Shown: one piece after another, positions 822 through 23,076 of the stretch
Position numbering within the stretch: the first letter of the stretch is position 1
How the letters are laid out: each line of letters starts with the position of its first letter
Source: Candidatus Omnitrophota bacterium
GTDB taxonomy: Bacteria > Omnitrophota > Gorgyraeia > 2-01-FULL-45-10
Length of the DNA stretch: 34,341 nt
Assembly (NCBI GenBank): GCA_016935115.1
Contig: JAFGRN010000060.1
Location: 1-34,341, forward strand
Direction: 5' to 3'
The notes under the pieces: model-generated
Database searches by the model: none
What the model was told of the DNA's origin: nothing
The model's input: the letters and a program-made list of their open reading frames with translations, nothing else
Made by a program: the position numbers and the translations under genes

Positions 822-2081
822 ATGATAAGAAAAAGTCATAGCGGCCTGCCTGTCGGGGCCGCTGTTATCGCGGCCTGCCTCATTTTTACCGGAGACGCCT
901 ATGCCTCGAACGGCTCGCGCATGCTCGGTTTTAGCGCGAGAGATTCAGCCATGGCAGGGGCCACCACGGCTTCCAGCGAAGATACGGCGTGTCTTGTAAA
1001 GAACCCGGCAGGGTTGGTAAATATAGGCAATAGGGTGGACCTGGAGTATCAGAATATATTGCCGCATGATGTTACTGTATATACGGAAGGCCCGGGACTT
1101 ACAGCTTTATTAGGGCTGCCGCTGGTAAATCCCCGGTTTAAACAGGAGAGCACAGTCAGCTATATACCCGGGGGCGATTTTGGCGTAAGCTACGGCATCC
1201 CCGGAGAAGGCAAACATCCCGTCGCGATAGGATGCGGCGTATTTAATATCTCAGGGCTGTCCCTGAACCTCAGGTCATCGAGGTTGAATCCGCTTGTCCT
1301 CAATGATTATGATAAGATGATAGATTTAAAGAGCATGAGGATAGCTCCGGGAGCCGCGATAGGGATTACCGATAAATTATCCGTCGGCGCCGCCGCGAAT
1401 ATAGAAGTGCAGGCGCTCCGGACAGATATGGCCACGACGCCTAATTACTTCGAGACCGTCGGCGGAGGCAAGTGGTCCTTCGCGCCGGGCGCGGGGTTCA
1501 CGGTGGGGATGGAATACGAAATAAACAGGATATTTGCTATAGGCGCCTCTTACGAAAGCCATACATGGATGAGAAGGCATTACAGGTATAAGGACTGCCT
1601 GCCTTATATCGACGAGCCGCCTGTTATAAACGCGGGGCTTTCGTTTAAGCCGGCAAAACAGCTGGAGCTCACTTTTGACACGCGTTATATAAACTGGACC
1701 GATGTCAAGATAGCGCGCCTGGCCCCCGATAACGGCGGTTTCGGATGGCGCGACCAGTGGGTATTCGCTACAGGCGCGGAATACGGCTTATTTAAGGACA
1801 GGCTGAAATTGCGCCTCGGATATAATTACGGAAGATCCCAGATCCAGCCGCATGTCGCCTTCGCCAATTCGCTTCTACCGCTTATCATGGAGCATCATCT
1901 TACGAACGGTTTTTCTTACGCGTTGACCAAAAAACTGTCGGTCGATCTTACATGGGAACACCATTTCTTCAATTCCATGGCGGATAAAGGATGGGGAGAT
2001 ATCACCAGCCAGGCCGGCGCCGGTTCCAAGATAAGCGCGGCAGTTGATGTAATCAGCGTCGGGGCATCATACAAATATTAA
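822..2081 (+). CDS. outer-membrane protein, OmpP1/FadL/TodX family
   Basis: A signal peptide (residues about 1-28, ending near 'DAYAS') is followed by the family's N-terminal plug signature: 'GFSARDSAMAGATTASSEDTACLVKNPAGL' matches the FadL pattern of a small-residue-rich segment ending in NPAGL. The rest is alternating beta-strand sequence suited to a 14-strand barrel, ending in aromatic 'GASYKY' as outer-membrane barrels often do. At 419 aa the length is normal for the family. FadL-type barrels take up hydrophobic compounds such as fatty acids across the outer membrane; the substrate here is unknown. An AAGGGG Shine-Dalgarno precedes the ATG. It heads a tight cluster and is followed 9 bases later by a PlsC acyltransferase, which fits lipid handling. 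Confidence 0.85.
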   Translation: MIRKSHSGLPVGAAVIAACLIFTGDAYASNGSRMLGFSARDSAMAGATTASSEDTACLVKNPAGLVNIGNRVDLEYQNILPHDVTVYTEGPGLTALLGLPLVNPRFKQESTVSYIPGGDFGVSYGIPGEGKHPVAIGCGVFNISGLSLNLRSSRLNPLVLNDYDKMIDLKSMRIAPGAAIGITDKLSVGAAANIEVQALRTDMATTPNYFETVGGGKWSFAPGAGFTVGMEYEINRIFAIGASYESHTWMRRHYRYKDCLPYIDEPPVINAGLSFKPAKQLELTFDTRYINWTDVKIARLAPDNGGFGWRDQWVFATGAEYGLFKDRLKLRLGYNYGRSQIQPHVAFANSLLPLIMEHHLTNGFSYALTKKLSVDLTWEHHFFNSMADKGWGDITSQAGAGSKISAAVDVISVGASYKY

Positions 2082-2090
2082 AAGAGGTCC

Positions 2091-2855
2091 ATGAGGTTTA
2101 TACTGTCGGTGTTGATATGGGCGCTCGGTGTGATCATCACCGCGGCCGCCTTCGCCGCAAGTTGGGCCATCAAGGTTTGGCCATTTCCTATAGCCGGAAG
2201 GCAGAGGCTTGTTCACGCGCAATGTTTCTGGTGGTCGGATGCCCTGATGGCGCTGAATCCATTCTGGAAGATAAGGGTGGAAGGGCTCGGGAATATTGAC
2301 TATAACCGCACGTACGTCATAGTAGCCAACCACCAGAGCCTCGCCGATATCATCATAATCTACCGTACGCATATGTACTTCAAATGGGTGGCTAAGGAAG
2401 AGCTTCTGAAAGTTCCTTTCATAGGCGGCCTTCTCCGCGTCAATGACCATGTCCTGCTCTCGAGGGAAGATTTAAGCAGTATTAAAGAAGTATACCGTAA
2501 AGCGGCCGAAAATCTGAGAAGCGGTATATCGATGCTGTTTTTCCCCGAAGGGACCCGTAGCAGCACGGATGAGATGGGAGAATTTAAGAACGGAGCCTTT
2601 AAGCTCGCCATAAAAGAAGGTATACCTGTCCTGCCGGTATTTATAGGCGGCACCAGGGAAGCGATCCCTAAAGGAGGGTTTGTATTCAAGGCCAAAGTAT
2701 CGGGCAGGGTCGTGGTCCTCCCCCCGATCGAGACGTCGGCTCTTAGTACAGCCGATTATTCAGCATTGAAAGACAAGGTCCGCGCGCAGCTTAAGGATGT
2801 TTCGGATTTTTTATTGCGCCGGCGGCACGCTGAGGGTAAAATAAAAAGCATATGA
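2091..2855 (+). CDS. plsC: 1-acyl-sn-glycerol-3-phosphate acyltransferase (PlsC family)
   Basis: The protein transfers an acyl chain to lysophosphatidic acid to make phosphatidic acid at the inner face of the cytoplasmic membrane. The catalytic NHx4D box is 'NHQSLAD' (residues 80-86), and the glycerol-phosphate-binding box is 'FPEGTRS' (151-157), followed by 'GIPVLPVFIGG'. A hydrophobic N-terminal helix (residues about 3-28) anchors it. At 254 aa the length is typical. AGAGGT precedes the ATG, and the end overlaps the next gene by 4 bases. A paralogue acting on other lysolipids cannot be excluded. Confidence 0.92.
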   Translation: MRFILSVLIWALGVIITAAAFAASWAIKVWPFPIAGRQRLVHAQCFWWSDALMALNPFWKIRVEGLGNIDYNRTYVIVANHQSLADIIIIYRTHMYFKWVAKEELLKVPFIGGLLRVNDHVLLSREDLSSIKEVYRKAAENLRSGISMLFFPEGTRSSTDEMGEFKNGAFKLAIKEGIPVLPVFIGGTREAIPKGGFVFKAKVSGRVVVLPPIETSALSTADYSALKDKVRAQLKDVSDFLLRRRHAEGKIKSI

Positions 2856-3778
2856 GAAGAATATTTCTTTTGACCATAATAATAATATTCATAGCGATGG
2901 GCGCTTATGGTTTCGGTGTCATACAGAACTGCTTCAAACCCACCGAGGCTATATCGCCCTGCAAAGTGAATATAATGGTGCGGACCGCCAGGTGGAAAGA
3001 ACTGGAGAAGGAGATAAACAAGACCCTTAAGCGTTTTAACGGAACCGCGGGGGTCGTAATCAATGACCTTGACCTGAACTGGGAGATCGCCATAAATGAA
3101 GATAAGGTGATACCGTCTGCCAGCATGGTGAAGATCCCCATAATGATGGCCTACTACTGCGCTTCCCGCAACGGCCTGGTAGATCTTAATGCCAGGATAC
3201 GCCTGACCGATAAATTAAAAGCGCCCGGGTCCGGAACGCTGAAGAATGCGGCTTCCGGGACGGATCTCTCCGTTGAAGAGATGATGATCCTTATGATCAC
3301 CCAGAGCGACAATACAGCGGCCAATATCCTCATAGACTATCTCGGCATGGATAAGTTGAATTATTATTTCTCCGCTATGGGCCTGAAGAATACCAATCTG
3401 TCGCGAAAGATGATGGATTTTAAGTCGAGAAAAGCCGGGGTAGAGAATTACACTACTGCCCGGGATATCGCGTTTCTTCTTTATAAATTATACCGCAATA
3501 AATTTCTGGATAAGGCTATGTCCCAGAGATGCCTTAAGATACTGGCATGCCAGAAGGTCAATGACCGGATCCCGAAGAAACTGCCGGAGAAGGTCACGGT
3601 GGCGCATAAGACCGGGCTCGAGAGAGGCCTCTGCCACGACGCCGGCATTGTCTATACCGATAAAGGGAACTTTTTGATATGTGTGCTGGTAAACCACAAT
3701 GACAAGACCGCCGCGGCTGCGAAGAGCCTGATCTCCAGGATATCTTTGCTTACATATCTATATCATAACGGGGAGTGA
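2852..3778 (+). CDS. exported serine hydrolase, class A beta-lactamase fold (PF13354-like)
   Basis: An N-terminal hydrophobic segment (residues about 3-22) exports or anchors the protein. The three active-site boxes are present: SxxK as 'SMVK' (91-94), 'SDN' (152-154) and 'KTG' (253-255). The class-A general base (the ExxN omega-loop element) is not obvious: the region reads 'MMDFKSRKAGVENYTT'. True beta-lactam hydrolysis is therefore uncertain, and a DD-peptidase-like or other peptidoglycan-related activity is at least as likely. The start overlaps the plsC end by ATGA, which implies translational coupling. The receiver-domain gene follows after 3 bases. The context is envelope maintenance rather than a resistance cassette. 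Confidence 0.8.
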   Translation: MRRIFLLTIIIIFIAMGAYGFGVIQNCFKPTEAISPCKVNIMVRTARWKELEKEINKTLKRFNGTAGVVINDLDLNWEIAINEDKVIPSASMVKIPIMMAYYCASRNGLVDLNARIRLTDKLKAPGSGTLKNAASGTDLSVEEMMILMITQSDNTAANILIDYLGMDKLNYYFSAMGLKNTNLSRKMMDFKSRKAGVENYTTARDIAFLLYKLYRNKFLDKAMSQRCLKILACQKVNDRIPKKLPEKVTVAHKTGLERGLCHDAGIVYTDKGNFLICVLVNHNDKTAAAAKSLISRISLLTYLYHNGE

Positions 3779-3781
3779 GGA

Positions 3782-4159
3782 TTGAAGACGATACTGGTGG
3801 TGGAAGACAATAAGGACCTGAGGGACATACTCAAGAAGAGGCTGGAATACGAGGGGTATCTTGTAAACCTGGCCGAGGACGGATATGTGCTTCTGGGCAG
3901 CCTGAGGTCCGGCAAAGAACCCGACGCCATCATCCTGGATCTTATGCTCCCCGGGCGCAGCGGCGTGGAGTTATTGGGCACACTCACTTCTACGTGGAAG
4001 ATGACGAAGATATATATATTTTCCGCCCATCCGGAATATCAGGAGCGGCACGGGCTTAAAAATTATGATATCGCCGGGTACTTCCTGAAATCCGACGGTA
4101 TAGATAATCTCATAACAACGATAAAAGAGGATCTCGAGGGGACAGAGTGGGAAAAGTAA
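3782..4159 (+). CDS. stand-alone response-regulator receiver domain protein
   Basis: This is a single CheY-like receiver of 125 aa with no output domain. The acidic pair is E8-D9 ('VVEDN'), the phospho-acceptor is D53 ('IILDLMLPG'), the switch Ser is S81 ('IFSAH') and the conserved Lys is K103 ('YFLKSD'). The start codon is TTG, with GGGGAG about 7 bases upstream. The 3' end overlaps the sensor kinase by 13 bases, so the two are very likely partners. Without a DNA-binding domain it probably acts by protein interaction or in a phosphorelay. Confidence 0.85.
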   Translation: MKTILVVEDNKDLRDILKKRLEYEGYLVNLAEDGYVLLGSLRSGKEPDAIILDLMLPGRSGVELLGTLTSTWKMTKIYIFSAHPEYQERHGLKNYDIAGYFLKSDGIDNLITTIKEDLEGTEWEK

Positions 4160-6033
4160 GGCTCTCGATAAACGTAAAGATAACCCTTCTCTTCCTTATG
4201 CTCTCCGTCCTACTGATCGGCACGATCGGATTTATCAACTATACATACAGCAAAGCCGACCTGGAGGAGAGGATACTGTCGGACCTGGCCGCTATCTCCA
4301 ATTCCAAGGCCACGGCCATAGGAATATTGCTGGAAGAAGACTATGAGGACCTGCTCGATGTCACGGGCAGGTCAATGATTAAGGGCGCATTACAGGCGAT
4401 TGAGGAGGGCTCAGGCGAGACGGCGAAGCTGAGGTCGAGGATCCTGGAGTCGGTCTCGACGGCTAAGGAAGCATCCAAGACCATCGAAGATATAACGATA
4501 ATAGGCATGGACGGAGTCGTGATAGCGTCGACCGATCCGGCGGCGTCGGGCACAGACCTCTCTGAAAGCATTTTTTTCATCAGCGGCAAACAGGGATTTC
4601 ATTTGAGCGCCCCTTATATGCGCAGGGGCGTTTTTGTTTATGAGATGTCAGCGCCGATAACCGGTCCGGGGAAAGGCAGCCGGGATATTGTCGGCGTGGC
4701 AAAGATGATAATAAATGAAACGAGATTATATGATATCCTGCGCGACTACTCCGGGCTGGGCTCTACGGGTGAAACCATACTGGGACAGCGTAAGGGGGGA
4801 GATATAGTATTTCTCGGGCCCATGCGCCACCGGCAAAATATGAGGATAAGGCTGCGTATTCCGTTAAAATCTATGTTTGCCCATCCTATGAAACTGGCCA
4901 TCGGCGGGAAGACCGGCTTTGCTACGGGCAGGGACTACCGCGGACAGGAAGTGTTTGCCGCCTATTACCATATTCCTTTAAGCGATTGGGGGCTTGTGGT
5001 AAAGATCGATAAGCAAGAAGCCTTTCAATCTATATATAACCTTCGCCTCCAGCTGATACTCTTCAGCGGCCTGCTTTTTCTTTTAAGCGCGCTGGCCATT
5101 ATGCAGCTGGCCCGTTATATTACCGATCCAATCGAGGTCCTGCACCAGGGGACGCGCATAATTGCTGACGGCAACCTGGGCTACCGCGTTAAAGTGAGCA
5201 CAAGCGATGAAATAGGCGAGCTGGCTTCGTCTTTTAATGATATGGCCGCGCATTTGCAGAAGATAACCGTTTCGGTAGACAGGCTCAATGAGGAGATAAA
5301 AGAGCGGAAGATCGCGGAAGAGAGACTGAACGAAGCGGTAAAGGTAAAGACAAATTTCATTTCTACAGTATCTCACGAGATCAGAACGCCTCTCGCCGCG
5401 GTAAAAGAAGGAATAAACATAGTCCTAGACGGTATCCTGGGGCCCGTGAATGACGAGCAAAAAGATTTTTTGGCGAGAACCAGGGCCAATGTGGACAGGC
5501 TGACACGGCTTATCAACGAGATACTCGATTTCCAGAAACTGGAGTCCGGCAGGATGGTGCTTTATAAGGAAGAGAACGATATCGTCAGGGTCGCGAAGGA
5601 AGTATATCATGTCATGGCTCCTCTGGCCAGGCAGAAGGGCGTGGCTTTTAAAATAATCCCGGAAGACCACCTGCCGAAGGCGGTTTTTGACAGGGACAGG
5701 ATCGCGCAGGTATTGACCAATCTTATCGATAATGCGGTAAAATTCACGGACAAGGGCGAGATATCCGTAAAGATTTCAAAAGGGCGGGATGACCTGCTCA
5801 TTACAGTAAGCGATACCGGACGCGGCATTTCGCAGGAAGACATGCCGCGCCTCTTCAAAAGTTTTGAGCAGCTGGGTAAGGTGAGGGACAGCAGGGGCGG
5901 CACAGGCCTGGGCCTTGTCATCTCGAGGGATATAGTCGAATTGCATGACGGCAGGATGTGGGCGGAATCCGAGCCCGGCAGAGGCTCGGAGTTCCATTTT
6001 ACATTACCCATTTCCACAGGAAACGTAAATTGA
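4147..6033 (+). CDS. membrane sensor histidine kinase (extracytoplasmic sensor, HAMP, HisKA, HATPase)
   Basis: Order of parts: TM1 (residues about 10-32), a roughly 260-residue extracytoplasmic region resembling a double-CACHE/PAS sensor, TM2 (about 301-320), HAMP (about 320-373), a short coiled linker, HisKA with the phospho-His H410 in 'STVSHEIRTPL', then HATPase_c with N529 in 'NLIDNAVKFT', 'DTGRGIS' and 'GGTGLGLVIS'. All catalytic boxes are intact. The start is GTG preceded by GAGGGG. It overlaps the receiver gene by 13 bases, and its own stop overlaps the downstream TTG start. The ligand is unknown; the neighbours suggest an envelope or lipid cue. Confidence 0.92.
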   Translation: MGKVRLSINVKITLLFLMLSVLLIGTIGFINYTYSKADLEERILSDLAAISNSKATAIGILLEEDYEDLLDVTGRSMIKGALQAIEEGSGETAKLRSRILESVSTAKEASKTIEDITIIGMDGVVIASTDPAASGTDLSESIFFISGKQGFHLSAPYMRRGVFVYEMSAPITGPGKGSRDIVGVAKMIINETRLYDILRDYSGLGSTGETILGQRKGGDIVFLGPMRHRQNMRIRLRIPLKSMFAHPMKLAIGGKTGFATGRDYRGQEVFAAYYHIPLSDWGLVVKIDKQEAFQSIYNLRLQLILFSGLLFLLSALAIMQLARYITDPIEVLHQGTRIIADGNLGYRVKVSTSDEIGELASSFNDMAAHLQKITVSVDRLNEEIKERKIAEERLNEAVKVKTNFISTVSHEIRTPLAAVKEGINIVLDGILGPVNDEQKDFLARTRANVDRLTRLINEILDFQKLESGRMVLYKEENDIVRVAKEVYHVMAPLARQKGVAFKIIPEDHLPKAVFDRDRIAQVLTNLIDNAVKFTDKGEISVKISKGRDDLLITVSDTGRGISQEDMPRLFKSFEQLGKVRDSRGGTGLGLVISRDIVELHDGRMWAESEPGRGSEFHFTLPISTGNVN

Positions 6034-11642: not shown

Positions 11643-11853
11643 GAGGATTCTTCTGGGGGAATAGAATAGGATTGTTAGGCCATAAAAAATTAAGCTAATC
11701 TAGCCTTGTCGCTCATAATATTGATGATATACTTATAATAGGATTGATTCAATGGGGATTTCTTTACGGAGTAATATGCAAGAAACAGGCGGAGGAATTT
11801 TTTTTGATTTGTTAATTTAAGTGCTTAGAAAGATCTCCGAAAGAGATATTAAT
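11643..11853 (+). other. upstream region of the giant gene, with a possible 14-aa leader ORF
   Basis: This gene-free stretch is AT-rich. It holds a TATAAT (11734-11739) without a good -35. It also holds a tiny ORF at 11776-11820: ACGGAG then ATG, 14 codons ('MQETGGGIFFDLLI') and TAA, in frame with and directly abutting the GTG at 11821. This could be a leader peptide or a relic of an older start. Nothing else is recognisable here. Confidence 0.3.
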
Positions 11854-14800
11854 ATGAATATAACCACCAGAGCTAATGGGATCTCGATTAAGAGCAAGCC
11901 ATTCAAGGTGATGGTATCGCTAGTCACCCTGGTGGCTTTTTTATGTAATATGGCATTACCCGACACGGCCCGGGCTATCGAGATACCCTCGCTTCTATCC
12001 GGTGCCGCTCCGGTGCCGGTAAAAGAACTGCGTGTGGATACTTTCACCCTGTCTGAATATCTGGGACATGTCAGCAGCTCGTGGCAGGCGACGGATGACA
12101 GCGGTTTGCCGGTTAACCGGTTAGCCAGTTCGCCGGTTCAAAACCGACAAACCGACAAACTGACAAACCGGCAAACTATCATTCACATTCAGGACGCCCA
12201 CTGCAACTACGCTGCCCAAAAGAGGATTTCCGATATAATCGGGTACCTCAACGAGGAGTATGGCATAGACACTGTAAATCTCGAAGGCGGCGCAAAGGGG
12301 TACGATCTTTCCGTATTCACGGATATAGCCGACAAGGCGGTCCGCGACAAAGTCTCCGACCATTTTGTCAAAGAGGGTCTCGTAAACGGCGCCGAATATT
12401 TCGCCGTGAATAATCCCGGTAAGGTCCGGCTGTGGGGCATAGAAGACGCGAAGCTCTATATGGAGAACCTGAAGATCTACAGAGACTCCCTCATGCATAA
12501 GGAAGAAGTGGACAGGCATCTTAAAACATTAAGCCTCATTCTCTCGAATCTTAAATCGAAGATCTATCCCAAGGATCTCCTCGATTTCGACATGAAGTAT
12601 GGCGCGTACAAGGCCGGCAATCTCGAATTTAAAGAGTACCTTAACTCTCTTATAGATATAGCGAAGGGTAAGGCTATAGACATAAAGGCCCTGCCGAACA
12701 TATATCTTCTGAATCAGACGCTCGAGGAAGAGGGCGGTATCGATTTCAAAAAAGCCAATAGAGAGCGCGACGAGTTGATCGACAGGATCCAGAAGAAACT
12801 CTCCAGGAATGCCCTCGAGGAGTTCGTGAAAAAGACGGTCGACTTCAGGTCCGAAAAACTCTCCCAAAAAGAGTTTTATTCCTATCTCATGGCAAAATTC
12901 GATGAGAGCGAGATTCTTCCCGCGGAATTCCGGGAGCTACGGAAGTACATCTCATACATCTCCATGTACGATGCAATAGGCAAAGATAAAATAATGGGAG
13001 AGATCGAGGCGCTCGAGAGCAAGATACGGGATGCGCTATGTCGCAATGACGAAGAGAGGCAGTTATGCGCGCTATCGAAGAACCTAATCTTATTGAGAAA
13101 AATCTTTGGCATCACTTTAACTAAGAGCGACTACAGTTATTATAAAGCGAACGAAGACGCTTTCGATATCCGCAGTTTCACCGCGTTCATAGACAGGAAT
13201 GCGCCGCTCTACGGCATAACCGCGAAACTCGATAACAATGCCGGCAACCTCGACCAATACCGAAGGGATATCGGGCGTTTCTACGAGTATTCTTTCAAGC
13301 GCGACGACGCGTTTATCAATAACATCACATTCCAAAACCGGCAAACCGGCAAACCGACCAACTGGCAAACTATATTGATAACCGGCGGTTTTCATACGGA
13401 GAATCTGCTGGAGCTCTTCAAGAAGCAGAATATCTCATACATCTCCATAATGCCCAACTTCAAAAATTACGACGGCTACAGCAGCCCGTATTTCAAGATC
13501 TTAAGCGGCGGATCGGTGGACGAGGTAGAGCAGGCCATCAGCCCTTACATATCTGCCATGCAGGTTCCGAGCCACCTGGCCCCCATAGAGGGGGCAGTGG
13601 ACGCGGCCGGGCTTAAGATGTTTGCGGTGAAAGTCGCCATTCAGCGTATTATGGCGGAGAAGAGCATCAATGGTGTCTCCATTGTGAAGGACGGCAAAGT
13701 GCTTGTCAAAGTCGGGGATCCGACGGATGCCGAGAAGAACTCCGTTGAACTGGATGAGCTTCTGAGTATGGCCAGGGCGAAGCCAGTGCCCGCCGCCGCA
13801 CCGGTTGCCGTGCCGGCCGAGCCGGGCAAGTCTGTCTCCGCGCCGGCTGCGTTGAAAGTCACAGATTTTGGAATAGCCAGTGATAATAGCGTAGGGGTGA
13901 CACGAACGCAGCACGTGGCATTTCATGAAGCTGGTCGTTTTCCCGATATTCTAAGCGATATCGCTGCCACTATGGGTGCGAAAACGCGGGCAGACGGAAA
14001 GTTTGACCTGCGAGAAACCGTGAGACAGGCAGGTGGTCGCATAACAACCGTATACGGAGAAGTATACATAACCGACGACGGGATATTGGTAGTAATTGAT
14101 AGCCGTTTTCAAAAAGACCATGCCGGCAGGGGTGAACAGGCTGTTTATGCTAGCACAAACGCGAAGGCGCAACACGAGATTGCCGAGTTACGGTTGTGGA
14201 AAGATTTTGCGCTGCAAAACGGTATTGCTACTTCCGAAGATATACAAAGTGGACTCCTGGGGATGAAATTGAGAGAGTGGATGAATGACAAATCCGTTGG
14301 CAATGCTGTATTGGCTGAAAGAGGGCGACTAATAGGAGAGAGGGCTAATGAGTTCCATAACAGAGGGTTGGCCGTCGAAGTAGAATATAATAAAGTCCTA
14401 CTCGGAAAACTGTACGTAAATAAAGGCGTCGTGGATATGCTCAAGGTTCTTATAGCGGGAGGGCTCCGGAAGGAATTAAGCCGGGAGGCATTGACAAAAT
14501 GGATCGAAGGCATAACCGTTTCATCGGCATCGTATATCTATAAAAATTGGGAAACCGCCGGTATTCTTTACCGTGGTACACTTCCAAATGGTAATGAGAT
14601 ATATATTTTAGTAAGAATGGAAAATGATAAAGTGAAAAGCGTTTCTATCAACATGGACCATATCCGTGGCCCTATGTATGCGGGAGCTCAATATCTGCAA
14701 GTACCCAACGCCTTGGCTGAGTCCGCGGCAAAAGCACTAGCGTCTAAGGGTATCCAGGTTTCCGCTGAGATTCAGGCAACCGGATTTGTAGTAATAAAAC

Positions 14801-17445
14801 CATTTATTGAGTCGGAAGATGACAAGGCGGATTTTGAGAAAGCACTCGACAACTATCCCATCATCAAGGAATTTTTGCTCATCATGATAGAACGAGGCAT
14901 AGGCCCTCACCTGACGCAAAGTTATGCTGTATTTAGGCAAGCAGGGGGCGCACACCAATGGCGCGGAAATATCTATAAAGGCACATATACTTCTCACCAT
15001 ATCAGCGAAATGATACATGAGTATATACATGCCGTTTACGACAAGCTCAGCGAAGACCAAAAAAGAGAGATTGAATTATATTTCAGACAGAATCATCCGG
15101 AGCTGGAAAATATATTTAAGAAGAGGTTATATAAAGGGCAAGACGTTAATTATGCAACAGAGGGCCTGGCCTATTATCTTCAGATGGCTTTGGATGGAAA
15201 GCGGGAAAATGCAGGATTTAAGACTGAAGATGGAAAAGTGTTCAGCCTAGTCCTGGCAAACGAAGATCTGGATTTCTTCGAAAAGCTCGGTCTGATTAAC
15301 GAGGGAATGAAAAATAAGATCAAATATCAACTTGCGGAGAAGCAAGGTGATATTGCTCAGCAGCGGATTATTGCGGAAGCTCTCCCCGAGAAAGTGGAAC
15401 AGGCCGCAGAAGTCGATTTCATCGTCGCCAGCGAAGGGCCTGCCGCCGCGCCTGTTATCGAGGTTACGCCGGCCCCGCTTGATGATTTTGTTAAAAATTC
15501 CACCGTATTTAAAAAGATAGCCGATGCCTTGCTCAAAGAAACCGCCGAGAAGGACAAAGAATTTAGTTTGGTTATAAATCCAGGAGATATAACTAATTCC
15601 GGTGCAGATGAGCTCACATCAAAAATAGTTGAGGGTGACTATAATGGGGCAAGAGGTAATAGAGATGCAAACATGGGAGGACTAGAGATTCATACACATC
15701 CTCTATCAGTATGTGCAATCCCAAGCGACGGCGATATTAATATTATGAAAACAAAAAAAGGTGTTGCACATATGATCCTTTGGAATGATGTCATCGTTTA
15801 TGTTAAAAACGCTGAAAACATTGACTATGACAAATATCTTAGCGGAGATATGATCGAACAGCTTCAAAAGAATGCGGTAACTAAAGTATTCAAGATTAAG
15901 CGCGACAGTAATGGCTCAATTATAGATATAAGCGACATAGCCCCCGAGCACTGGTTCTCTGCGATGTTAGGGATGGATGAAGAACAGGCACCATTACAGA
16001 GTAAAAACAGGCTTAAAGATGCTTCAGAAAGAGAAAGCAATCTTATTAAAGGCTATACCAGAGAAGAACTTTGTAAGGAATTTGAAAATATTACCCACGA
16101 AATAAAAAATGCCCATATAAATTTATCTTTAACTTTCAGGCCTTACAGATCAATGGTGGAAGCGAATGAAGCTCTTAAGCAGTTTATCGGTGGACAAGAA
16201 AACTCACGTCAGCTTCTATCCGCAGCGGAAAAATCTATGAAGCCAGGAGTTAAAAATATATCAGACCTTCAACGTATCACTGAAACGCTTAAAATTCTCC
16301 TTGTGAGGCGGTTAGTTATTGTAAAAAAACTGAAGGAAAATAACATTAGCATACCGACTTCCGAACCGGTAAAGGATGTTGCTACGCTTATCGTTATTGC
16401 ACAAAAAGAATACAACTATTTCCTAAAATACGAGATGGCATTGGCTCAGATTAATAACGATTTGGCTAATAATGATGTAGAATCTGCACTTAAGATTGCT
16501 CGGGAAATACTTGCTCAGCAGATACCAGTTTATATGTATATCTTGGGAGGAGGGTGGCAACATGTCGCATTCGAGCCTGCCGCCGCACCGGCGATACTCG
16601 GCGATATGCCGCAGATTGGCGCGGACCCGAGCCTCGAGGAAAGATTGGCGCTCGCGGCTTATGTGGACGGGAAGGCGAAAGAGGCAGGAGTCCGAAAAAC
16701 GCTCTCAGCGATTAAGTCGTCATTAACTGAGCGAAGTCGCGATGTCGAATTGGCGCTCGGAGCGGCGTTGGAGACAAAAGCCCTGGGTTATGTGACGCCC
16801 GAGGATATGAATGTCGTCACCCAATTTGTCGATCTGCGTAAGAGCAGTCCCGCTAATACCGCGACCAAAGAGATATCAAGCTATTTGCGCAAACCCGCCG
16901 GAAAATATAATGGGGCGAACTGTGAATCCGTAATAGGCAAGATAGGCATAGAAGAGAGTGAAAGTGATGCGGAGGAGATAATAAAGACGATTGATCGAAC
17001 GATAGATACTATGAATTCCGGTAAAGATCCCAGGGCTATATTTGAAGTGCCCTCGTGGATGGAAGATCGTTTTCTCGCTGCATGCCGCGCCAAGGGGCTA
17101 TTAAAAGAGAACACCAAAGGAGTCAGTATAATGCTGAATGATCCCAGGATGAGAGTCCAGATTTTGGCCCAGGAAGGAGACCCCGATGTCAGGACTCAAT
17201 TTAAGTTTGGCATCTCGGCGCTCGAATGGGTTCGCAGGGAAGAAAAAGGCATAGCTAGGGAAGATGCCGATAAAGCGCTATTAGACTTGATTGCATTTAT
17301 GGTTGACGGCGATCTGGGCCCTCGCGATCCCGGCTCAATTCTTAAAGATCTGTTATTCAAAGGTGTTATGAAACTTCGCAAGATAGACTGGAGTATCATG
17401 GACAAGGATCGTAAGGCTTGGGAAGCCGTTGCGCAGGCGCTGTAA
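11854..17445 (+). CDS. giant exported multi-module protein: ChaN/EreA-like region, HExxH zincin-like region, JAMM-like region
   Basis: The track uses GTG 11821. I prefer ATG 11854 because it gives a normal signal sequence ('FKVMVSLVTLVAFLCNMALPDTARA'). The result is about 1863 aa. Three 'PAAAP' linkers (about residues 647, 1197 and 1576) split it into modules. Module I (about 100-560) has 'IHIQDAHCNYAAQ' and ends its core with 'ITGGFHTENLL', resembling the ChaN/EreA/TraB-type hydrolase superfamily. Module II has 'AQHEIAELRLW' and a zinc-peptidase signature HEYIH (1055-1059) with a candidate third ligand E1103 ('TEGLAYY'). Module III has 'EIHTHP...PSDGD', a JAMM/MPN-like HxH-x8-SxxD motif (H1280, H1282). 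Module IV (about 1580-1863) is unrecognised and helical. Two tracts of 8-bp repeats lie inside module I. Module III is visibly richer in A+T than its flanks. The role is unknown: an exported processing enzyme or polymorphic effector are both guesses. Confidence 0.75.
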   Translation: MNITTRANGISIKSKPFKVMVSLVTLVAFLCNMALPDTARAIEIPSLLSGAAPVPVKELRVDTFTLSEYLGHVSSSWQATDDSGLPVNRLASSPVQNRQTDKLTNRQTIIHIQDAHCNYAAQKRISDIIGYLNEEYGIDTVNLEGGAKGYDLSVFTDIADKAVRDKVSDHFVKEGLVNGAEYFAVNNPGKVRLWGIEDAKLYMENLKIYRDSLMHKEEVDRHLKTLSLILSNLKSKIYPKDLLDFDMKYGAYKAGNLEFKEYLNSLIDIAKGKAIDIKALPNIYLLNQTLEEEGGIDFKKANRERDELIDRIQKKLSRNALEEFVKKTVDFRSEKLSQKEFYSYLMAKFDESEILPAEFRELRKYISYISMYDAIGKDKIMGEIEALESKIRDALCRNDEERQLCALSKNLILLRKIFGITLTKSDYSYYKANEDAFDIRSFTAFIDRNAPLYGITAKLDNNAGNLDQYRRDIGRFYEYSFKRDDAFINNITFQNRQTGKPTNWQTILITGGFHTENLLELFKKQNISYISIMPNFKNYDGYSSPYFKILSGGSVDEVEQAISPYISAMQVPSHLAPIEGAVDAAGLKMFAVKVAIQRIMAEKSINGVSIVKDGKVLVKVGDPTDAEKNSVELDELLSMARAKPVPAAAPVAVPAEPGKSVSAPAALKVTDFGIASDNSVGVTRTQHVAFHEAGRFPDILSDIAATMGAKTRADGKFDLRETVRQAGGRITTVYGEVYITDDGILVVIDSRFQKDHAGRGEQAVYASTNAKAQHEIAELRLWKDFALQNGIATSEDIQSGLLGMKLREWMNDKSVGNAVLAERGRLIGERANEFHNRGLAVEVEYNKVLLGKLYVNKGVVDMLKVLIAGGLRKELSREALTKWIEGITVSSASYIYKNWETAGILYRGTLPNGNEIYILVRMENDKVKSVSINMDHIRGPMYAGAQYLQVPNALAESAAKALASKGIQVSAEIQATGFVVIKPFIESEDDKADFEKALDNYPIIKEFLLIMIERGIGPHLTQSYAVFRQAGGAHQWRGNIYKGTYTSHHISEMIHEYIHAVYDKLSEDQKREIELYFRQNHPELENIFKKRLYKGQDVNYATEGLAYYLQMALDGKRENAGFKTEDGKVFSLVLANEDLDFFEKLGLINEGMKNKIKYQLAEKQGDIAQQRIIAEALPEKVEQAAEVDFIVASEGPAAAPVIEVTPAPLDDFVKNSTVFKKIADALLKETAEKDKEFSLVINPGDITNSGADELTSKIVEGDYNGARGNRDANMGGLEIHTHPLSVCAIPSDGDINIMKTKKGVAHMILWNDVIVYVKNAENIDYDKYLSGDMIEQLQKNAVTKVFKIKRDSNGSIIDISDIAPEHWFSAMLGMDEEQAPLQSKNRLKDASERESNLIKGYTREELCKEFENITHEIKNAHINLSLTFRPYRSMVEANEALKQFIGGQENSRQLLSAAEKSMKPGVKNISDLQRITETLKILLVRRLVIVKKLKENNISIPTSEPVKDVATLIVIAQKEYNYFLKYEMALAQINNDLANNDVESALKIAREILAQQIPVYMYILGGGWQHVAFEPAAAPAILGDMPQIGADPSLEERLALAAYVDGKAKEAGVRKTLSAIKSSLTERSRDVELALGAALETKALGYVTPEDMNVVTQFVDLRKSSPANTATKEISSYLRKPAGKYNGANCESVIGKIGIEESESDAEEIIKTIDRTIDTMNSGKDPRAIFEVPSWMEDRFLAACRAKGLLKENTKGVSIMLNDPRMRVQILAQEGDPDVRTQFKFGISALEWVRREEKGIAREDADKALLDLIAFMVDGDLGPRDPGSILKDLLFKGVMKLRKIDWSIMDKDRKAWEAVAQAL
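12104..12176. repeat. palindromic array of 8-bp repeats inside the giant CDS
   Basis: The left arm reads as GTTTGCCG/GTTAACCG/GTTAGCCA/GTTCGCCG. The right arm reads as variants of AACCGACA ending AACCGGCAAAC, which is the inverse complement of the left arm. The whole 73-bp block can fold into a long imperfect hairpin. It is translated in frame as 'LPVNRLASSPVQNRQTDKLT...', low-complexity sequence inserted just before the conserved 'IIHIQDAH' strand. Confidence 0.7.
13334..13370. repeat. second 8-bp tandem repeat tract (right-arm type only)
   Basis: AACCGGCA repeats with variants (AACCGGCA, AACCGACC, AACTGGCA) run in frame and encode 'QNRQTGKPTNWQT'. The tract resembles the right arm of the 12104-12176 palindrome, and it too stands directly before a core strand ('ILITGGFH'). 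No left arm is visible here. Confidence 0.65.
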
Positions 17446-17606: not shown

Positions 17607-19148
17607 ATGCTTAAAAAGATACTGGCGTTTACTGCGGTATTATTGGTCCTCGTTGCGGCAGCCGCGCCGGCCAATGCCGGTGAAAAAGATGTTGCCAGGC
17701 TCATTTATTTTTATTCGCCCAGCTGTGAGCATTGCGCAAGGGTCAGGGCCAATGTAATTCCTCTCATAGAGAAGTATTACAGCGACAGCCTTGAAGTAGC
17801 CTACAGTGATATCAGCGAGCCCGAAAGTTACAAAGAGCTATTCGACCTTAAGCACAAGTACAGCGACGACGAGAAGACCGTATTTCCGGTGCTCTTCATG
17901 AACGGCCGTTTTATCGACCAGCGGGATATCGAAAGCGGGGGCGATAAGGCCATATTTTCATTCATAAAAGATTCGATAAATTCCCGCGCCGCCGAGAAGA
18001 AGGGCTTTGTCAAGGCGGACATTATCGAGTATTTCAAAAAGATCAAGCCTCTGGCTATTCTGGGAGCCGGCCTTGTAGACGGCGTAAACCCCTGCTCGTT
18101 TACAGTAATAGTATTTTTCCTGTCATTCCTCGCATTACAAAGATATGACCATAAGACGATAACGTGGGCGGGATCCGCATTCATCCTGGCATGTTTCATA
18201 ACATATGTTGCGATAGGGCTGGGTGTACTGGCGCCGCTCTATGCTTTCAAGGGATTCAGGACCGTTACACAGGCCATCAATTCGACTATCGGTGTTCTCA
18301 GCATTGCGTTAGGGGCCCTGTCTCTGTATGATGCTTTGAAATTTATGAAGACAAAGAATCCGGAGGACAGCATACTCCAGCTTCCCAAGAGGGTAAAAAA
18401 CAGTATCCATAGTATCATCGGCAGTGAATACCGGGTTACAAAAGAAGGGGGAGAACAAAAAATAGCGAGATCCTCATCGAAGATATTCTTCGGCGCGTTG
18501 GCGATAGGTTTTTCCGTATCGATACTCGAGTCGATCTGCACGGGGCAGTTATATCTGCCTACCATAATATTTGTCCTGAAGACATCTCCTTATAAGCTGC
18601 AGGCACTGGGCTATCTTTTTGCCTATAATCTTATGTTTATACTTCCGATCTGTGTAATATTCCTTTTTGCGCTGGCGGGAATGACGTCTCACGGTTTTGC
18701 TTCCATCATGAAAAAGTATTTCATCGTGATCAAACTGGCGATGGCGGCGCTCTTTATAGTGCTGGGCGCCTCGCTGGTATGGGCTGAAGAAGCGGACGCC
18801 CCGGCAGTTAACGCTCCGGCGCGGCAGAAGACCCATTCGAATGTTGTCATAGACCCGAACTCCTATGATTTCGGCAAGGTCAAGCAGGGTGAAGTGTTGA
18901 AACATGACTTTATGCTGAAAAATAATGAATCAGAAACCATCACTATTAAGGAAGTAAATACCTCGTGCGCGTGCGCTTCGCCCAAGGTGGACAAGAAGAC
19001 GATAGCTCCGGGGGAATCGGTGCCTGTAGGGATCGTATTTGATACAAGAGGATATTCCGGAATAAAGAAGCGGCAGTTATTCGTCCACACCGATTCCAAG
19101 AAGAACCCGCTCGTTATATTCGAGGTAGAGGCGGATATACAGTGGTGA
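17607..19148 (+). CDS. thioredoxin / CcdA-DsbD-like membrane / DUF1573 fusion protein
   Basis: The ATG at 17607 (not 17418) starts a signal peptide ending near 'AAAPANAGEK', giving 513 aa. The N-terminal thioredoxin-like domain has C40-E-H-C43 ('SPSCEHC') and a later Pro before the beta-strand ('FPVLFMNGRF'). The middle is a six-helix CcdA/DsbD-type electron carrier with one Cys in each half: C163 ('GVNPCSF') and C311 ('ESICTGQ'). The C-terminal domain is DUF1573-like ('YDFGKVKQGEVLKHDFMLKN', 'SCACASPKVDKKTIAPGE'), an Ig-like fold with a C-x-C motif. It probably passes reducing power from the cytoplasm across the membrane to extracytoplasmic thiols. The very Cys-rich exported proteins just downstream are obvious candidate clients. 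Confidence 0.85.
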   Translation: MLKKILAFTAVLLVLVAAAAPANAGEKDVARLIYFYSPSCEHCARVRANVIPLIEKYYSDSLEVAYSDISEPESYKELFDLKHKYSDDEKTVFPVLFMNGRFIDQRDIESGGDKAIFSFIKDSINSRAAEKKGFVKADIIEYFKKIKPLAILGAGLVDGVNPCSFTVIVFFLSFLALQRYDHKTITWAGSAFILACFITYVAIGLGVLAPLYAFKGFRTVTQAINSTIGVLSIALGALSLYDALKFMKTKNPEDSILQLPKRVKNSIHSIIGSEYRVTKEGGEQKIARSSSKIFFGALAIGFSVSILESICTGQLYLPTIIFVLKTSPYKLQALGYLFAYNLMFILPICVIFLFALAGMTSHGFASIMKKYFIVIKLAMAALFIVLGASLVWAEEADAPAVNAPARQKTHSNVVIDPNSYDFGKVKQGEVLKHDFMLKNNESETITIKEVNTSCACASPKVDKKTIAPGESVPVGIVFDTRGYSGIKKRQLFVHTDSKKNPLVIFEVEADIQW

Positions 19149-19178: not shown

Positions 19179-19206
19179 TTGACAATTTCAAAATACGAGA
19201 TATATT
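19179..19206 (+). promoter_or_regulatory. sigma70-type promoter for the Cys-rich PKD gene
   Basis: TTGACA (19179-19184), a 16-base spacer and TATATT (19201-19206) lie about 87 bases before the PKD gene start. The perfect -35 and 5/6 -10 suggest strong, independent transcription of the exported Cys-rich genes. Confidence 0.65.
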
Positions 19207-19292
19207 AATATACAGCCTTTGAACACAGGTTTAGGGGCTTGTGATAATATAGGTAATACTATAGATAGTGTAGTGGAATGAAAGGAGGCAGT

Positions 19293-20978
19293 ATGAAGAA
19301 AGCGGTATTATGCATGGCATTGGTCGCGGCATTCGTGACTATGTTGTGCGGCGTCTCGTACTCCGCGTCTGATGCCGAGTGCGGACCGTGTAAAAAATTT
19401 ACAAAATGCATAGGTGAAACGTTCACCTTTGACGCGACAAAGTCCTGCGCCAATACATGCGGGCCTTGTGCTCCGAGACTGTGCTACAGGTGGGATTTTG
19501 GAGACGGTTGCACGGCTGAAGGCGCATGCGTGACTCATTGTTACGAGAATTCGGGTGAATATATGGTGAAACTGACCGTAACCGATGACTCGGGCCTGCC
19601 ATGTGACAGCGACTCCATTACTCAAATGGTAAAAGTAAACTGCCCCCCGAAAGCCATATTTACAGGACCGGATTGCGCTTGCTGTGGAATGGAAGTTACA
19701 TATGATGGTTCCGGTTCTTCAAGTGAGACTTCAAAAGTCTTGAATTATAACTGGTGCTTCAGTGATGGGGCGACTTACGATGGGCCGATTGCGAAGCATA
19801 CCTTTACATGCGGCGGCTGCCAGAAGGTTATGCTTACGGTTGATGACGGCTCATGCAGCAACTGCTGTGTGGATACCGCCTGCATGGACGTAAGGGTAAA
19901 TACCGCTCCTTGCGTGGATGCCGGAAATGATATATGCCTGACCTGCATACCTCAGGGCCAGGATTTCTGCGTAAATCTTAAAGCTTGCGGAAGTGACGCG
20001 GAAGGCGATTGCCTTACCTATATGTGGAATTTCGGCGATGGATCTTCTGCCGAAGGCCAGTGCGTAAGTCACACATATGCCGATCCCGGAAACTACAAAG
20101 TAACGGTGGTTGCCAGCGACGGCTGTAACTCCCCCTGCAGTACCGGTTCGGATTGCTTGACAGTATATTGTTCCAGGCAGCCGTGCGCGGAAGCGGGCGT
20201 AGAGCATGTGATATGCGTCAACACTCAAGCTGAGTTTGACGGCTCGAAGTCTGTAGCCGGTCCCGGAGCTAATTATATATGGGATTTTGGCGATGGCGAA
20301 AAGGCCAACGGCGTAAGGGCCTCGCACGCTTATGATGCGGGCGGACATTATGAAGTCACCCTTACCGTGGAAGACGGCGAATGTTGCTCATATGATTCCA
20401 CCTGCGTAAAGGTGAATGCCGGTCCGGTCGCGGCTCTCTGCGGCCCTGAAGAGGCTTGTACCGGTGAGAACATATCGTTTAATGCCACCGGTTCTTGCGA
20501 TCCTGATGGCGATTGCATAACCTATAATTGGGATTTTGGCGATGGTACGACTTGCGCCAATGGCGGTCCCAAAGTCTGCCATATGTACGAAAAGGGCGGA
20601 AAGTACACCATCACGGTTTCTGTGGATGATGGGATGGGGCTTCCTTGCTCTGCCCACTCGGCAAGCACCAGCGTGACGATAAATGGCCGTCCAACGGCTG
20701 TTATCGCTCCATGTGACGCTTGCTGTGTCGGCAAAGAGATCCTCTGGGATGGTTCGGCTTCGAGCGATCCGGATGGGGATGCGTTGAAGTATTCGTGGGA
20801 TTTCGGAGATGGAGCTACCGCTGAAGGCGCGAAAGCGACCCATGTCTATACCGCGAACGGTAACTACAAGGTCACGCTGAAAGTAGATGACGGCAAAGGC
20901 ACCCCGTGTTCGGTGAATTATTCGATGTATACAGCATGTATACACGAAGGCCCGAAAGCGGATCTTTGCGTTAATTAA
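19293..20978 (+). CDS. exported, extremely Cys-rich six-PKD-domain protein
   Basis: AAAGGAGG lies four bases before ATG 19293, which I prefer over the track's 19278. A signal peptide ('AVLCMALVAAFVTMLCGVSYSA') leads to a mature region made of six PKD repeats. Each carries a form of 'YxWDFGDGxxAEG...H.Y...G.Y.VTLTVDDG'; the second is degenerate ('YNWCFSDGATYDG'). Roughly fifty cysteines (about 9% of residues) are spread over the repeats, often as CC, CxxC or CxCC, where ordinary PKD domains have almost none. There is no sorting tail or TM at the C-terminus ('KADLCVN'), so it is secreted or loosely surface-bound. PKD domains mediate adhesion and carbohydrate or protein binding. The disulfides would make a rigid fibre or coat. 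Cysteine clusters could also bind metal. Confidence 0.85.
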   Translation: MKKAVLCMALVAAFVTMLCGVSYSASDAECGPCKKFTKCIGETFTFDATKSCANTCGPCAPRLCYRWDFGDGCTAEGACVTHCYENSGEYMVKLTVTDDSGLPCDSDSITQMVKVNCPPKAIFTGPDCACCGMEVTYDGSGSSSETSKVLNYNWCFSDGATYDGPIAKHTFTCGGCQKVMLTVDDGSCSNCCVDTACMDVRVNTAPCVDAGNDICLTCIPQGQDFCVNLKACGSDAEGDCLTYMWNFGDGSSAEGQCVSHTYADPGNYKVTVVASDGCNSPCSTGSDCLTVYCSRQPCAEAGVEHVICVNTQAEFDGSKSVAGPGANYIWDFGDGEKANGVRASHAYDAGGHYEVTLTVEDGECCSYDSTCVKVNAGPVAALCGPEEACTGENISFNATGSCDPDGDCITYNWDFGDGTTCANGGPKVCHMYEKGGKYTITVSVDDGMGLPCSAHSASTSVTINGRPTAVIAPCDACCVGKEILWDGSASSDPDGDALKYSWDFGDGATAEGAKATHVYTANGNYKVTLKVDDGKGTPCSVNYSMYTACIHEGPKADLCVN

Positions 20979-21052: not shown

Positions 21053-21412
21053 ATGAGGAAAGTGATATTGACGGTCATGGCTATATTTGTGGCCGCGATG
21101 TTTGCGTCAGTAGCTGTTGCCGCTACTTCGAGTCCGTGTACTACATGCGCGAAACCGTGCAACACATGCGCGAAACCGTGCAACACATGCGCGACGCCAT
21201 GTAAGCCGCTTCCGAAAGTCTGTATCGATTGGAGATGGCCCAAAGTTACTCTTGATAAATGCGCCCCGTGCGCCCCGTGCGGACCGGTGTGCGTAATGTA
21301 TAAGAGAGACGCGCTTGGCCAGAAAGTCCCGGTTCAGTCGATGACAGCTGTCGGCGATGCGAACACGGACACGGCTACAAAGTACGAAAATACGCTTATA
21401 TCGGGGAATTAA
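21053..21412 (+). CDS. small exported protein with tandem CxxCxxx repeats
   Basis: AGGAGG precedes the ATG. A signal peptide (residues about 1-24, 'FVAAMFASVAVAA') is followed by 'SPCTTCAKPCNTCAKPCNTC', a short array with a Cys every three or four residues, then 'CAPCAPCGPVC' and a Cys-free polar tail. The repeat is encoded by near-identical 21-base units (TGCAACACATGCGCGAAACCG). I do not recognise the family. It follows the Cys-rich PKD gene and shares its Cys-x-x-Cys style, so the two may be disulfide-linked partners or a metal-binding pair. Confidence 0.7.
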   Translation: MRKVILTVMAIFVAAMFASVAVAATSSPCTTCAKPCNTCAKPCNTCATPCKPLPKVCIDWRWPKVTLDKCAPCAPCGPVCVMYKRDALGQKVPVQSMTAVGDANTDTATKYENTLISGN

Positions 21413-21441: not shown

Positions 21442-21478
21442 ACGGGCAAGAGGCCTCGAAACCTCTTGCCCGTTGTTA
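21442..21478 (+). terminator. intrinsic terminator after the CxxC-repeat gene
   Basis: ACGGGCAAGAGG pairs with CCTCTTGCCCGT (12 bp, 8-base loop), followed by TGTTATT. A smaller perfect hairpin, AAGCTAA-GCG-TTAGCTT (21422-21438), sits just upstream. Together they close the Cys-rich exported gene group. Confidence 0.7.
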
Positions 21479-21492
21479 TTGCGCGGAAATTC

Positions 21493-23076
21493 ATGAAAAA
21501 CAATTTCTTTATATTCAGGAGCTTCAGGGCGAGGATCACGTTCTTCCTTATACTTGCGATGATACTTGCCGGGGCCACTTCGAACTTTCTGGTATACCGC
21601 TATGCGCTTCATTTCCAGTTCGAACAGCTTCGCGAAAAACTCATGACTATAGCCCAGACGGCCGCCCTTACGGTAGACGCCGATGAACTTCAGGCTATCC
21701 CGCTTGAGAAAGGTGGGGTGGACAGCCTTCAGTTCAAGACGGTCTCCGGGAAATTGGCCAGGATAAGGAAAGCCATCCCTGCCATAAGGCATATCTACAT
21801 TCTCACCAGGACTGAAAAACCAGAAGTATTTAAGTTTATGGCGGATGCCGACGCCGGAAAGAGTAATGAGGGGCCGGTAACTTTTCCGGGAGATGAATAT
21901 GACGCTTCAAAGTTCCCGGAAATGATAAATGCGTTCAATGGGCCTTCGGCGGACAGGAAGCTGGACGAGGATGATTGGGGGGTATTTCTTTCCGGATATT
22001 CGCCTTTATATGACAGAGACGGTGCTGTTATCGCCGTGCTGGGTGTAGATATGAAGGCTCAGGATGTATATGATATGCAGAAGGATGTTCATAACAGGGC
22101 GTTAGCTGTACTTATTCTGGGCATTATCTTCTCGGTATTTTTGGGGGTGCTAATATCCGGAGGCGCTGCCGGGCAGATAAAAGAACTGATGAAGGGTGCA
22201 GAGCGTATCGCGAAAGGGGATCTCGAACACAGGGTGAAGATAAAGGGCGGCGACGAGCTGTCCCGCCTGGGAAACCTTTTTAACAGGATGTCGGTAAGCC
22301 TCAAGCATCATATGAAAGAGCTGGAGAGGACCACCGCGGAAAAAGAAAGGCTGGTGAAGGAGATAGAGATAGCCAGCGGCATCCAGAGGAGTTTTCTCCC
22401 GGATTTCGCTCCTAAGATACCCGGGTTGGAAATAGCGGCCCTAAGCCTGCCCGCGCGCGTTGTAGGCGGGGATTTTTATGATTTTATACCTCTTGCCAGC
22501 GGGAGGTGGGGGTTTGTCGTTGCCGATGTCTCCGGCAAAGGCGTGCCCGCCGCGCTCTTCATGGCCCTATCCAGGACATTGATGCGTTCGACGGCGGCGG
22601 GAGCGCTTACGCCGTCCGATGCGATAAACCATGCCAATAAGCTGATACTGCAGGACAGCAAGGCAAGCATGTTTGTTACGCTCTTCTACGCGATCGTGAA
22701 CGCGGGCACCATGGTATTTCAATATGCCAATGCCGGGCATAATCCGCCGCTTTATGTTACCGACGGAAAAGATAATATAGTGTTTCTTAAGGCGCAGGGC
22801 GTCCCGCTCGGGATATCATCCGATATAGAATCAGCTACAAACGATATAACTCTCAAGAAGGGGGATATGGTCCTCATATATACCGATGGTGTTACTGAGG
22901 CGGTCAACAGCCGTGGCGAGCAATTTGAGATGGAACGGCTGGAGAAGATAGCGAAAGGGGCCAGGCATCTGCCGGCCCAGGGGATCATGGACAGGGTGAT
23001 GGAAGGACTCAAGTCATTTGTAGGAACAGAACAGCAGTATGATGACATAACGATAATGGTATTGAAGGTGATGTGA
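21493..23076 (+). CDS. membrane PP2C-type phosphatase (RsbU/SpoIIE family) with extracytoplasmic sensor and HAMP
   Basis: ATG 21493, with GGAAA upstream, is preferred to the track's TTG inside the terminator; this gives 527 aa. Parts: TM1 ('ITFFLILAMILAGATSNFLV'), an extracytoplasmic CACHE-like sensor with 'YSPLYDRDGAVIAVLGVDMKA', TM2 ('ALAVLILGIIFSVFLGVLIS'), HAMP, a helical linker 'EKERLVKEIEIASGIQRSFLP', then SpoIIE phosphatase. Metal-binding Asp boxes are visible: 'GGDFYDF' (D327), 'VADVSGKG' and 'DDITIMVLK'. Such proteins dephosphorylate anti-sigma-factor antagonists in partner-switching circuits. No RsbV/RsbW-like gene lies nearby in the window. Confidence 0.9.
   Translation: MKNNFFIFRSFRARITFFLILAMILAGATSNFLVYRYALHFQFEQLREKLMTIAQTAALTVDADELQAIPLEKGGVDSLQFKTVSGKLARIRKAIPAIRHIYILTRTEKPEVFKFMADADAGKSNEGPVTFPGDEYDASKFPEMINAFNGPSADRKLDEDDWGVFLSGYSPLYDRDGAVIAVLGVDMKAQDVYDMQKDVHNRALAVLILGIIFSVFLGVLISGGAAGQIKELMKGAERIAKGDLEHRVKIKGGDELSRLGNLFNRMSVSLKHHMKELERTTAEKERLVKEIEIASGIQRSFLPDFAPKIPGLEIAALSLPARVVGGDFYDFIPLASGRWGFVVADVSGKGVPAALFMALSRTLMRSTAAGALTPSDAINHANKLILQDSKASMFVTLFYAIVNAGTMVFQYANAGHNPPLYVTDGKDNIVFLKAQGVPLGISSDIESATNDITLKKGDMVLIYTDGVTEAVNSRGEQFEMERLEKIAKGARHLPAQGIMDRVMEGLKSFVGTEQQYDDITIMVLKVM

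Follow-up and report, generated by a model that had tools for sequence, protein, structure and literature searches.

Coupled cysteines point to interdomain disulfide staples in tandem PKD proteins, with a cysteine-rich extreme in Omnitrophota

Results

A cysteine-rich PKD gene and its neighbours

The window (the whole stretch of 34,341 nucleotides that was analysed) comes from a 1.4 Mb Omnitrophota genome that is 82% complete and whose two nearest named relatives carry the label Candidatus Omnitrophota. Bacteria of this group are considered small and, in many cases, dependent on a host (PMC10066038). The gene under study, gene 2 (Table 1), encodes a protein that is 9.4% cysteine, with two of its Cys residues in a putative signal peptide (MKKAVLCMALVAAFVTMLCGVSYSA) and the other 51 in the mature chain; because most other proteins of the window contain 0–3% Cys, this density is exceptional. 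The signal peptide would place the protein at the cell surface. The mechanically called open reading frame (ORF) opens at 19278, where the ATG overlaps the Shine-Dalgarno sequence (AAAGGAGG), and 19293 is therefore the likely start.

Table 1. Coordinates of the PKD gene, its domains and the neighbouring features in the window.
Feature	Position	Strand	Description
Gene 1, thioredoxin-like/membrane/DUF1573 protein	17607..19148	+	signal/TM helix; CEHC thioredoxin-like part; multi-helix membrane domain (NPC, CTGQ); C-terminal DUF1573 beta-sandwich with CxC
Promoter match, sigma-70-like	19179..19206	+	TTGACA-16-TATATT, 11/12; upstream of PKD gene
Gene 2, secreted six-PKD protein	19293..20978	+	561 aa, 53 Cys
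Signal peptide of gene 2 (predicted from composition)	19293..19367	+	approximately residues 1–25
PKD 1	19407..19625	+	PF18911 match (alignment); A-B Cys C39 at 19407, F-G Cys C104 at 19602
PKD 2	19641..19886	+	PF18911 match (alignment); A-B Cys C130 at 19680, F-G Cys C191 at 19863
PKD 3	19899..20165	+	PF18911 match (alignment); A-B Cys C218 at 19944, F-G Cys C282 at 20136
PKD 4	20175..20390	+	PF18911 match (alignment); A-B Cys C308 at 20214, F-G Cys C365 at 20385
PKD 5	20415..20669	+	PF18911 match (alignment); A-B Cys C389 at 20457, F-G Cys C452 at 20646
PKD 6	20682..20918	+	PF18911 match (alignment); A-B Cys C477/C478 at 20721–20726, F-G Cys C539 at 20907
Gene 3, small secreted Cys-rich protein	21053..21412	+	119 aa, 12 Cys; CxKPCxxC repeats; conserved tail YKRDxLGxxVP...LISG
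SpoIIE-type phosphatase with HAMP/sensor part	21466..23076	+	next same-strand gene after cassette; putative cassette member

The first-pass annotation had credited gene 2 with a strong dedicated promoter as support for abundance, a claim that proved weak. The best same-strand upstream promoter sites of the orthologues reach only 10/12 and 9/12, and a scan of the region returned 5 sites vs 3.0 ± 2.0 in shuffled sequence, so the match at this locus is no demonstration of high expression. Elsewhere in the window, an exported-looking protein of 1874 amino acids with few Cys (11821–17445) has no significant Pfam or NCBIfam family, and an exported Beta-lactamase2-type (serine hydrolase/PBP-like) protein is encoded at 2852–3778 (Pfam E 5e-65).

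PKD domains and the ancestral cysteine pattern

The six PKD units with a WDFGDG core described in the first-pass annotation were recovered as six matches to Pfam PF18911 (PKD_4), all above the gathering score, with a whole-protein E of 1e-125. An alignment of 69 proteins places the protein in an Omnitrophota six-PKD family, in which the six domains are in register and Cys residues occur at common positions in the A-B and F-G turns. Each domain thus described has two ancestral Cys sites, one in the A-B turn (Cx(G/V)xxxxFDAS) and one in the F-G turn (DDxSGTxC). Contrary to the first-pass annotation, Cys is a normal component of PKD domains in this family: about two are conserved in each PKD of the relatives, and the same holds for many Bacteroidota PKD arrays.

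Orthologues of gene 2 (64–66% identity; 49 and 44 Cys) were found in only 2 of 26 genomes of the same family, and a class-wide search of 384 genomes gave strong matches in 59. The remaining relatives (37–53% identity) mostly have about 13 Cys; six-PKD proteins outside the three Cys-rich ones mostly carry 10–17, usually with 13 inside the PKD part, and two loci of one genome (G168) encode six-PKD proteins with 16 and 22. Cys makes up 7.8–9.4% of the window protein and its two orthologues, which belong to three genera. As ordinary relatives stand at about 13 Cys and these three proteins at 44–53, the enrichment is recent and is laid over an older arrangement with about two Cys in each domain; judged from these counts, the ∼38 extra Cys of the window protein are a lineage-specific addition. 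A Cys-rich ORF at a contig end (locus L222, 3–221, G240:C48; KQKTAYEIYQCDWSSDVCSSDL) was also seen, which we take to resemble translated sequencing-adapter contamination.

Coupled cysteines in neighbouring domains

Among 58 complete relatives from Omnitrophota, all of the ordinary, non-Cys-rich kind, the A-B Cys of domain i and the F-G Cys of domain i+1, AB(i) and FG(i+1), were both present in 276 cases, both missing in 13 and discordant in 1 (p = 1e-21, a value that kinship among the relatives inflates, as it does the other coupling p values). Within single domains of the same 58 proteins there was no coupling: AB(i) and FG(i) were never missing together and were discordant in 31 cases (p = 1), which rules out intradomain pairing of the ancestral Cys. 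Pairing of FG(i) with AB(i+1), or of AB(i) with FG(i+2), was likewise ruled out by zero co-absence in this set. Across all 66 pairs of Cys sites, the only co-absent ones were AB5-FG6, AB3-FG4 and AB6-FG1.

The same relation was found in an independent set of nine distant, long multi-PKD proteins from KSB1, Ignavibacteria, Melioribacteraceae and other lineages, where AB(i) and FG(i+1) were both present in 23 cases and both missing in 22, with 0 discordant (p = 2e-13). When independent pairs were drawn from a tree, AB3-FG4 co-changed in two of three supported pairs and AB5-FG6 in two of two, with none in the opposite direction; these supported losses are too few for a sign test, and every informative one agrees with coupling. 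The FG4 Cys is present in two relatives (L195 and L197), offset by alignment shifts.

Bacteroidota domains have a shorter B-C loop, and AB(i)/FG(i+1) sites were scored there with wide windows, giving 190 cases with both Cys, 1 and 9 discordant and 2 with neither (p = 0.008). Because the sites are nearly saturated, only a test of the first domain is informative in this group. Four of 29 first domains lack the F-G Cys vs 1 of 127 other domains (p = 0.004), and in all four proteins concerned (L065, L083, L091, L103) the array begins near the N-terminus. Under an AB(i)-FG(i+1) rule the F-G Cys of the first domain has no partner, so these exceptions follow the rule, which suggests that it holds widely in Bacteroidota surface proteins.

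Structure prediction for the window protein offers a reason for this pattern. Within one domain, the A-B Cys and the F-G Cys have five strands between them (in domain 2 of the model, residues 110–114, 127–132, 137–139, 142–146 and 151–160), so that in an antiparallel sandwich the two Cys would face opposite ends of the bead; the placement of domains relative to one another is of low confidence in this model (pTM 0.46). In a tandem chain of Ig-like domains, the lower end of each bead contacts the upper end of the one that follows. Cys at opposite ends, together with this bead-to-bead contact, predict bonding of AB(i) to FG(i+1), with which the loss patterns agree.

Coupled presence and absence thus strongly supports AB(i)-FG(i+1) pairing of the ancestral Cys. 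A disulfide is the natural, well-supported reading of such pairs, which would act as staples between domains, with a chemistry and geometry that we infer from these patterns. None of the open-licence papers searched reports disulfides between the domains of a PKD array; such bonds could already be on record in subscription papers and structure deposits.

The extra cysteines

Conservation divides the 51 mature Cys of the window protein unevenly. Both orthologues keep 31 of them, comprising the 13 ancestral residues and 18 of the 38 extra ones; a further 11 are kept in one orthologue and 9 are unique. Pairing and conservation, on which the first-pass annotation had staked its proposal, therefore apply to the ancestral set, all 13 of which are conserved and ten paired. 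The ∼38 additions are conserved no better than the rest of the chain: both orthologues keep 18 of 38, and 53% of the non-Cys residues are identical in all three proteins. As a group, the extra Cys are, by this comparison, retained in number and not especially in place.

The extra Cys that are conserved three ways lie largely near domain junctions, in A-B turns, F-G turns and linkers. Counts of Cys kept in all three proteins match across each junction (AB1 3/FG2 3, AB2 2/FG3 2, AB3 2/FG4 2, AB4 1/FG5 1, AB5 1/FG6 1), read after the fact and with regions defined post hoc. This suggests bonds added at the first three junctions together with a drifting remainder, an arrangement that fits cross-linking better than fixed metal sites. 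The mature proteins have 51, 47 and 42 Cys; with odd numbers in two of the three orthologues, at least one thiol in each of those two would be free or intermolecular.

The CC, CxxC and CxCC groups singled out in the first-pass annotation are real in that CC, CxC and CxxC occur (4, 1 and 7 times) and the overall density is high, but the grouping is what composition predicts (means of 4.7, 4.8 and 4.8 in 2000 composition shuffles), and CC and CxxC are ruled out as special motifs. The CxxCH haem motif is absent from the window protein, which rules out binding of haem c. With no motif enrichment, no CxxCH and positions that turn over, the earlier suggestion of metal loading found no positive support.

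Redox-related genes at PKD loci

Gene 1 ends in a domain that matches the DUF1573/OS_HP2 family (PF07610, E 7e-20, 71 bits vs a gathering cut-off of 26), here fused to thioredoxin-like and membrane domains. A Thioredoxin_2 match was found in 7 of 9 members of the gene 1 family (best E 4e-6), that of the window protein being weak and below cut-offs; across the nine aligned homologues the CxxC is invariant, and the invariant Cys of the alignment are C40, C43, C163 and C311. An AlphaFold2 model (pLDDT 71) shows a helix, a thioredoxin-type domain, a helical domain and a sandwich in that order, and Foldseek returned matches to the DUF1573 sandwich only. Selenoprotein members of DUF1573 have a UxC motif (PMC2398784, PMC9312934), which points to a redox site where gene 1 has CxC.

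Assignment of the gene 1 membrane domain to DsbD/CcdA found no firm support: PF02683 (DsbD_TM) has no match in gene 1, a whole-genome search with it gives other loci, and hhalign comparison with genuine CcdA proteins is weak (probability 17%), aligned at the NPC/TPC cysteine. CcdA-type proteins are encoded elsewhere in the source genome. No VKOR, DsbA or Thioredoxin_4 match scored above cut-off in the source genome (82% complete) or in five close relatives, and gene 1 may thus belong to a small number of extracytoplasmic thiol-redox proteins.

Gene 3 matched no Pfam or NCBIfam family. It was found in 3 of 57 genomes searched, exactly those with the Cys-rich rod, and at all three loci the order gene 1, Cys-rich PKD rod, gene 3 is conserved. 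An orthologue-bearing genome (G016) also encodes two tandem gene 3 paralogues with 20 and 16 Cys, away from the cassette (L162, 4467–4877 and 5023–5277, G016:C77). The SpoIIE-type phosphatase with HAMP also lies downstream of the cassette at the two orthologous loci, L037 (11098–12690) and L038 (10941–12533).

The association of PKD genes with redox genes extends beyond the Cys-rich proteins. At 23 of 64 PKD loci, from relatives not selected for a redox neighbour, a homologue of the thioredoxin/membrane protein or of DUF1573 lies on the same strand within 700 bases of the PKD gene, and these 64 loci hold only 25 such ORFs among roughly a thousand.

Several loci carry variants of this arrangement. 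At L159, a truncated PKD protein of 274 amino acids, 18 of them Cys (3–824, G048:C20), is directly followed by an 1113-residue protein with thioredoxin-like matches and a gene 1-type membrane domain (996–4334), a pair that is, from its sequences, a second, separate coupling of a Cys-rich protein with a redox protein. In one Omnitrophota family, the PKD-adjacent redox gene carries an additional N-terminal part that weakly matches metallophosphoesterases, to give a fusion protein of about 700 amino acids (L154, 5077–7203; similar at L213, L216, L218, L222–L224, L227, L229, L235 and L237). At L155 (7447–8577, G055:C30), the gene immediately before the PKD gene encodes a DUF1573-rhodanese fusion, another sulfur-redox enzyme in this position.

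Discussion

We consider it rather probable that gene 2 encodes a disulfide-stapled rod, cross-linked by its extra thiols into a layer or fibre and served by dedicated thiol-disulfide handling. The exported rod would consist of six Ig-like PKD beads in which ten of the 13 ancestral Cys form five interdomain staples, each joining the lower end of bead i (A-B turn) to the upper end of bead i+1 (F-G turn) and so stiffening the chain. In a small lineage, about 38 Cys would later have been added along the full length of the rod, and the gene for a small secreted protein, also rich in Cys, would have joined the locus. The extra thiols would cross-link rods to each other and to the gene 3 protein in a surface layer or fibre. 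The gene 1 protein would carry electrons or disulfides through the membrane and thereby secure the formation or repair of correct bonds, in cells for which the searches gave no DsbA, Thioredoxin_4-type or VKOR enzyme. The six-PKD protein with its signal peptide, the coupling of AB(i) with FG(i+1), the gain of Cys in this lineage and the conserved cassette are observations; bonding by disulfides, a stiffened rod, a place on the surface, cross-links to the gene 3 protein and the direction in which gene 1 passes electrons are inferred from them. The disulfide-linked fibres of the first-pass annotation thus survive in part: disulfide use is supported for the ancestral Cys, as interdomain staples, by their coupling and by a conserved redox cassette that fits, but not in the form then claimed.

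It is fairly unlikely that only the ancestral staples are functional, with the extra Cys pairing locally at junctions to rigidify a single rod and forming no intermolecular network. Many conserved extra Cys do lie beside ancestral ones, with counts that match across junctions; those regions were chosen post hoc, however, and both the odd mature Cys numbers and the co-inherited gene 3 protein, which suggests a partner, count against this reading. An improbable alternative holds that the gene 1 protein keeps the extra thiols reduced and that they bind metal, as a surface metal sponge or metal-thiolate coat. The high Cys density would suit such a role, a thioredoxin/membrane protein could hold extracytoplasmic thiols reduced, and the oxidases DsbA, Thioredoxin_4 and VKOR were not found in the source genome and five relatives. 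Against this, CC, CxC and CxxC are no more frequent than in shuffles, about half of the extra positions are not conserved, unlike typical metal sites, the cassette has no recognised metal-transport gene, and disulfides account better than metal for how strictly the ancestral Cys are coupled in pairs.

Least credible, to the point of being very improbable, is a neutral or compositional drift towards Cys that serves no dedicated function, in a lineage of strict anaerobes. Turnover of the extra positions at the background rate is what drift predicts, but three genera hold Cys contents of 7.8–9.4% with a second Cys-rich gene adjacent, while most window proteins stay at 0–3%.

A doubtful but possible extension is that the staple rule also operates between molecules, AB6 of one rod bonding FG1 of the next to give a head-to-tail covalent disulfide filament. 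The partnerless F-G Cys of the first domain is sometimes lost in Bacteroidota, yet Omnitrophota rods retain the Cys at both ends, FG1 (C104) and the AB6 pair (C477/C478), and it is this retention on which the head-to-tail reading is based. FG1 and both AB6 Cys were lost together in one relative (L236); two others lost FG1 and kept AB6. If such filaments form, those of the Cys-rich lineage would be linked side by side by the extra thiols and the gene 3 protein, under the control of the neighbouring redox protein.

Comparison with known systems separates the common from the unusual. The window protein shares its domain family, tandem layout, two Cys per domain and AB(i)-FG(i+1) coupling with PKD_4 arrays of Omnitrophota, Ignavibacteria, KSB1 and Bacteroidota. 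It has three to four times the Cys of the usual Omnitrophota member and, unlike ordinary Omnitrophota PKD relatives, is accompanied by a small Cys-rich partner.

The best Foldseek matches of the modelled rod are to GhpA, the grappling-hook protein of Aureispira (PDB 9flw, 9flp, 9fly; E 5e-20, TM 0.43), a likeness of Ig-like beads in one line that extends to the rod-like fold only (17–19% identity); a sequence-profile search of the PDB at 1e-10 gave no GhpA match. GhpA is a heptamer of a 5,898-residue protein (PMC13319060), against 561 residues here. In Chlamydia, the Cys-rich envelope proteins OmcA and OmcB (COMC) are heavily disulfide cross-linked with the involvement of redox enzymes (PMC6752827). 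Their likeness to the Cys-rich rod is functional, by analogy, with no claim of homology, and the DsbA/DsbB pair of Chlamydia is missing from the PKD cassette.

The interdomain rule is the more general result, and the Cys-rich protein its extreme case. Bonding the A-B turn of one bead to the F-G turn of the next would be a simple rule for locking tandem PKD beads into stiff rods; such beads are very common on bacterial surfaces, and the rule, which spans several phyla, needs nothing beyond sequence to be recognised. The link between rods and redox genes offers a hypothesis for the function of DUF1573, and a cross-linked surface fibre or coat in Omnitrophota would bear on attachment or protection.
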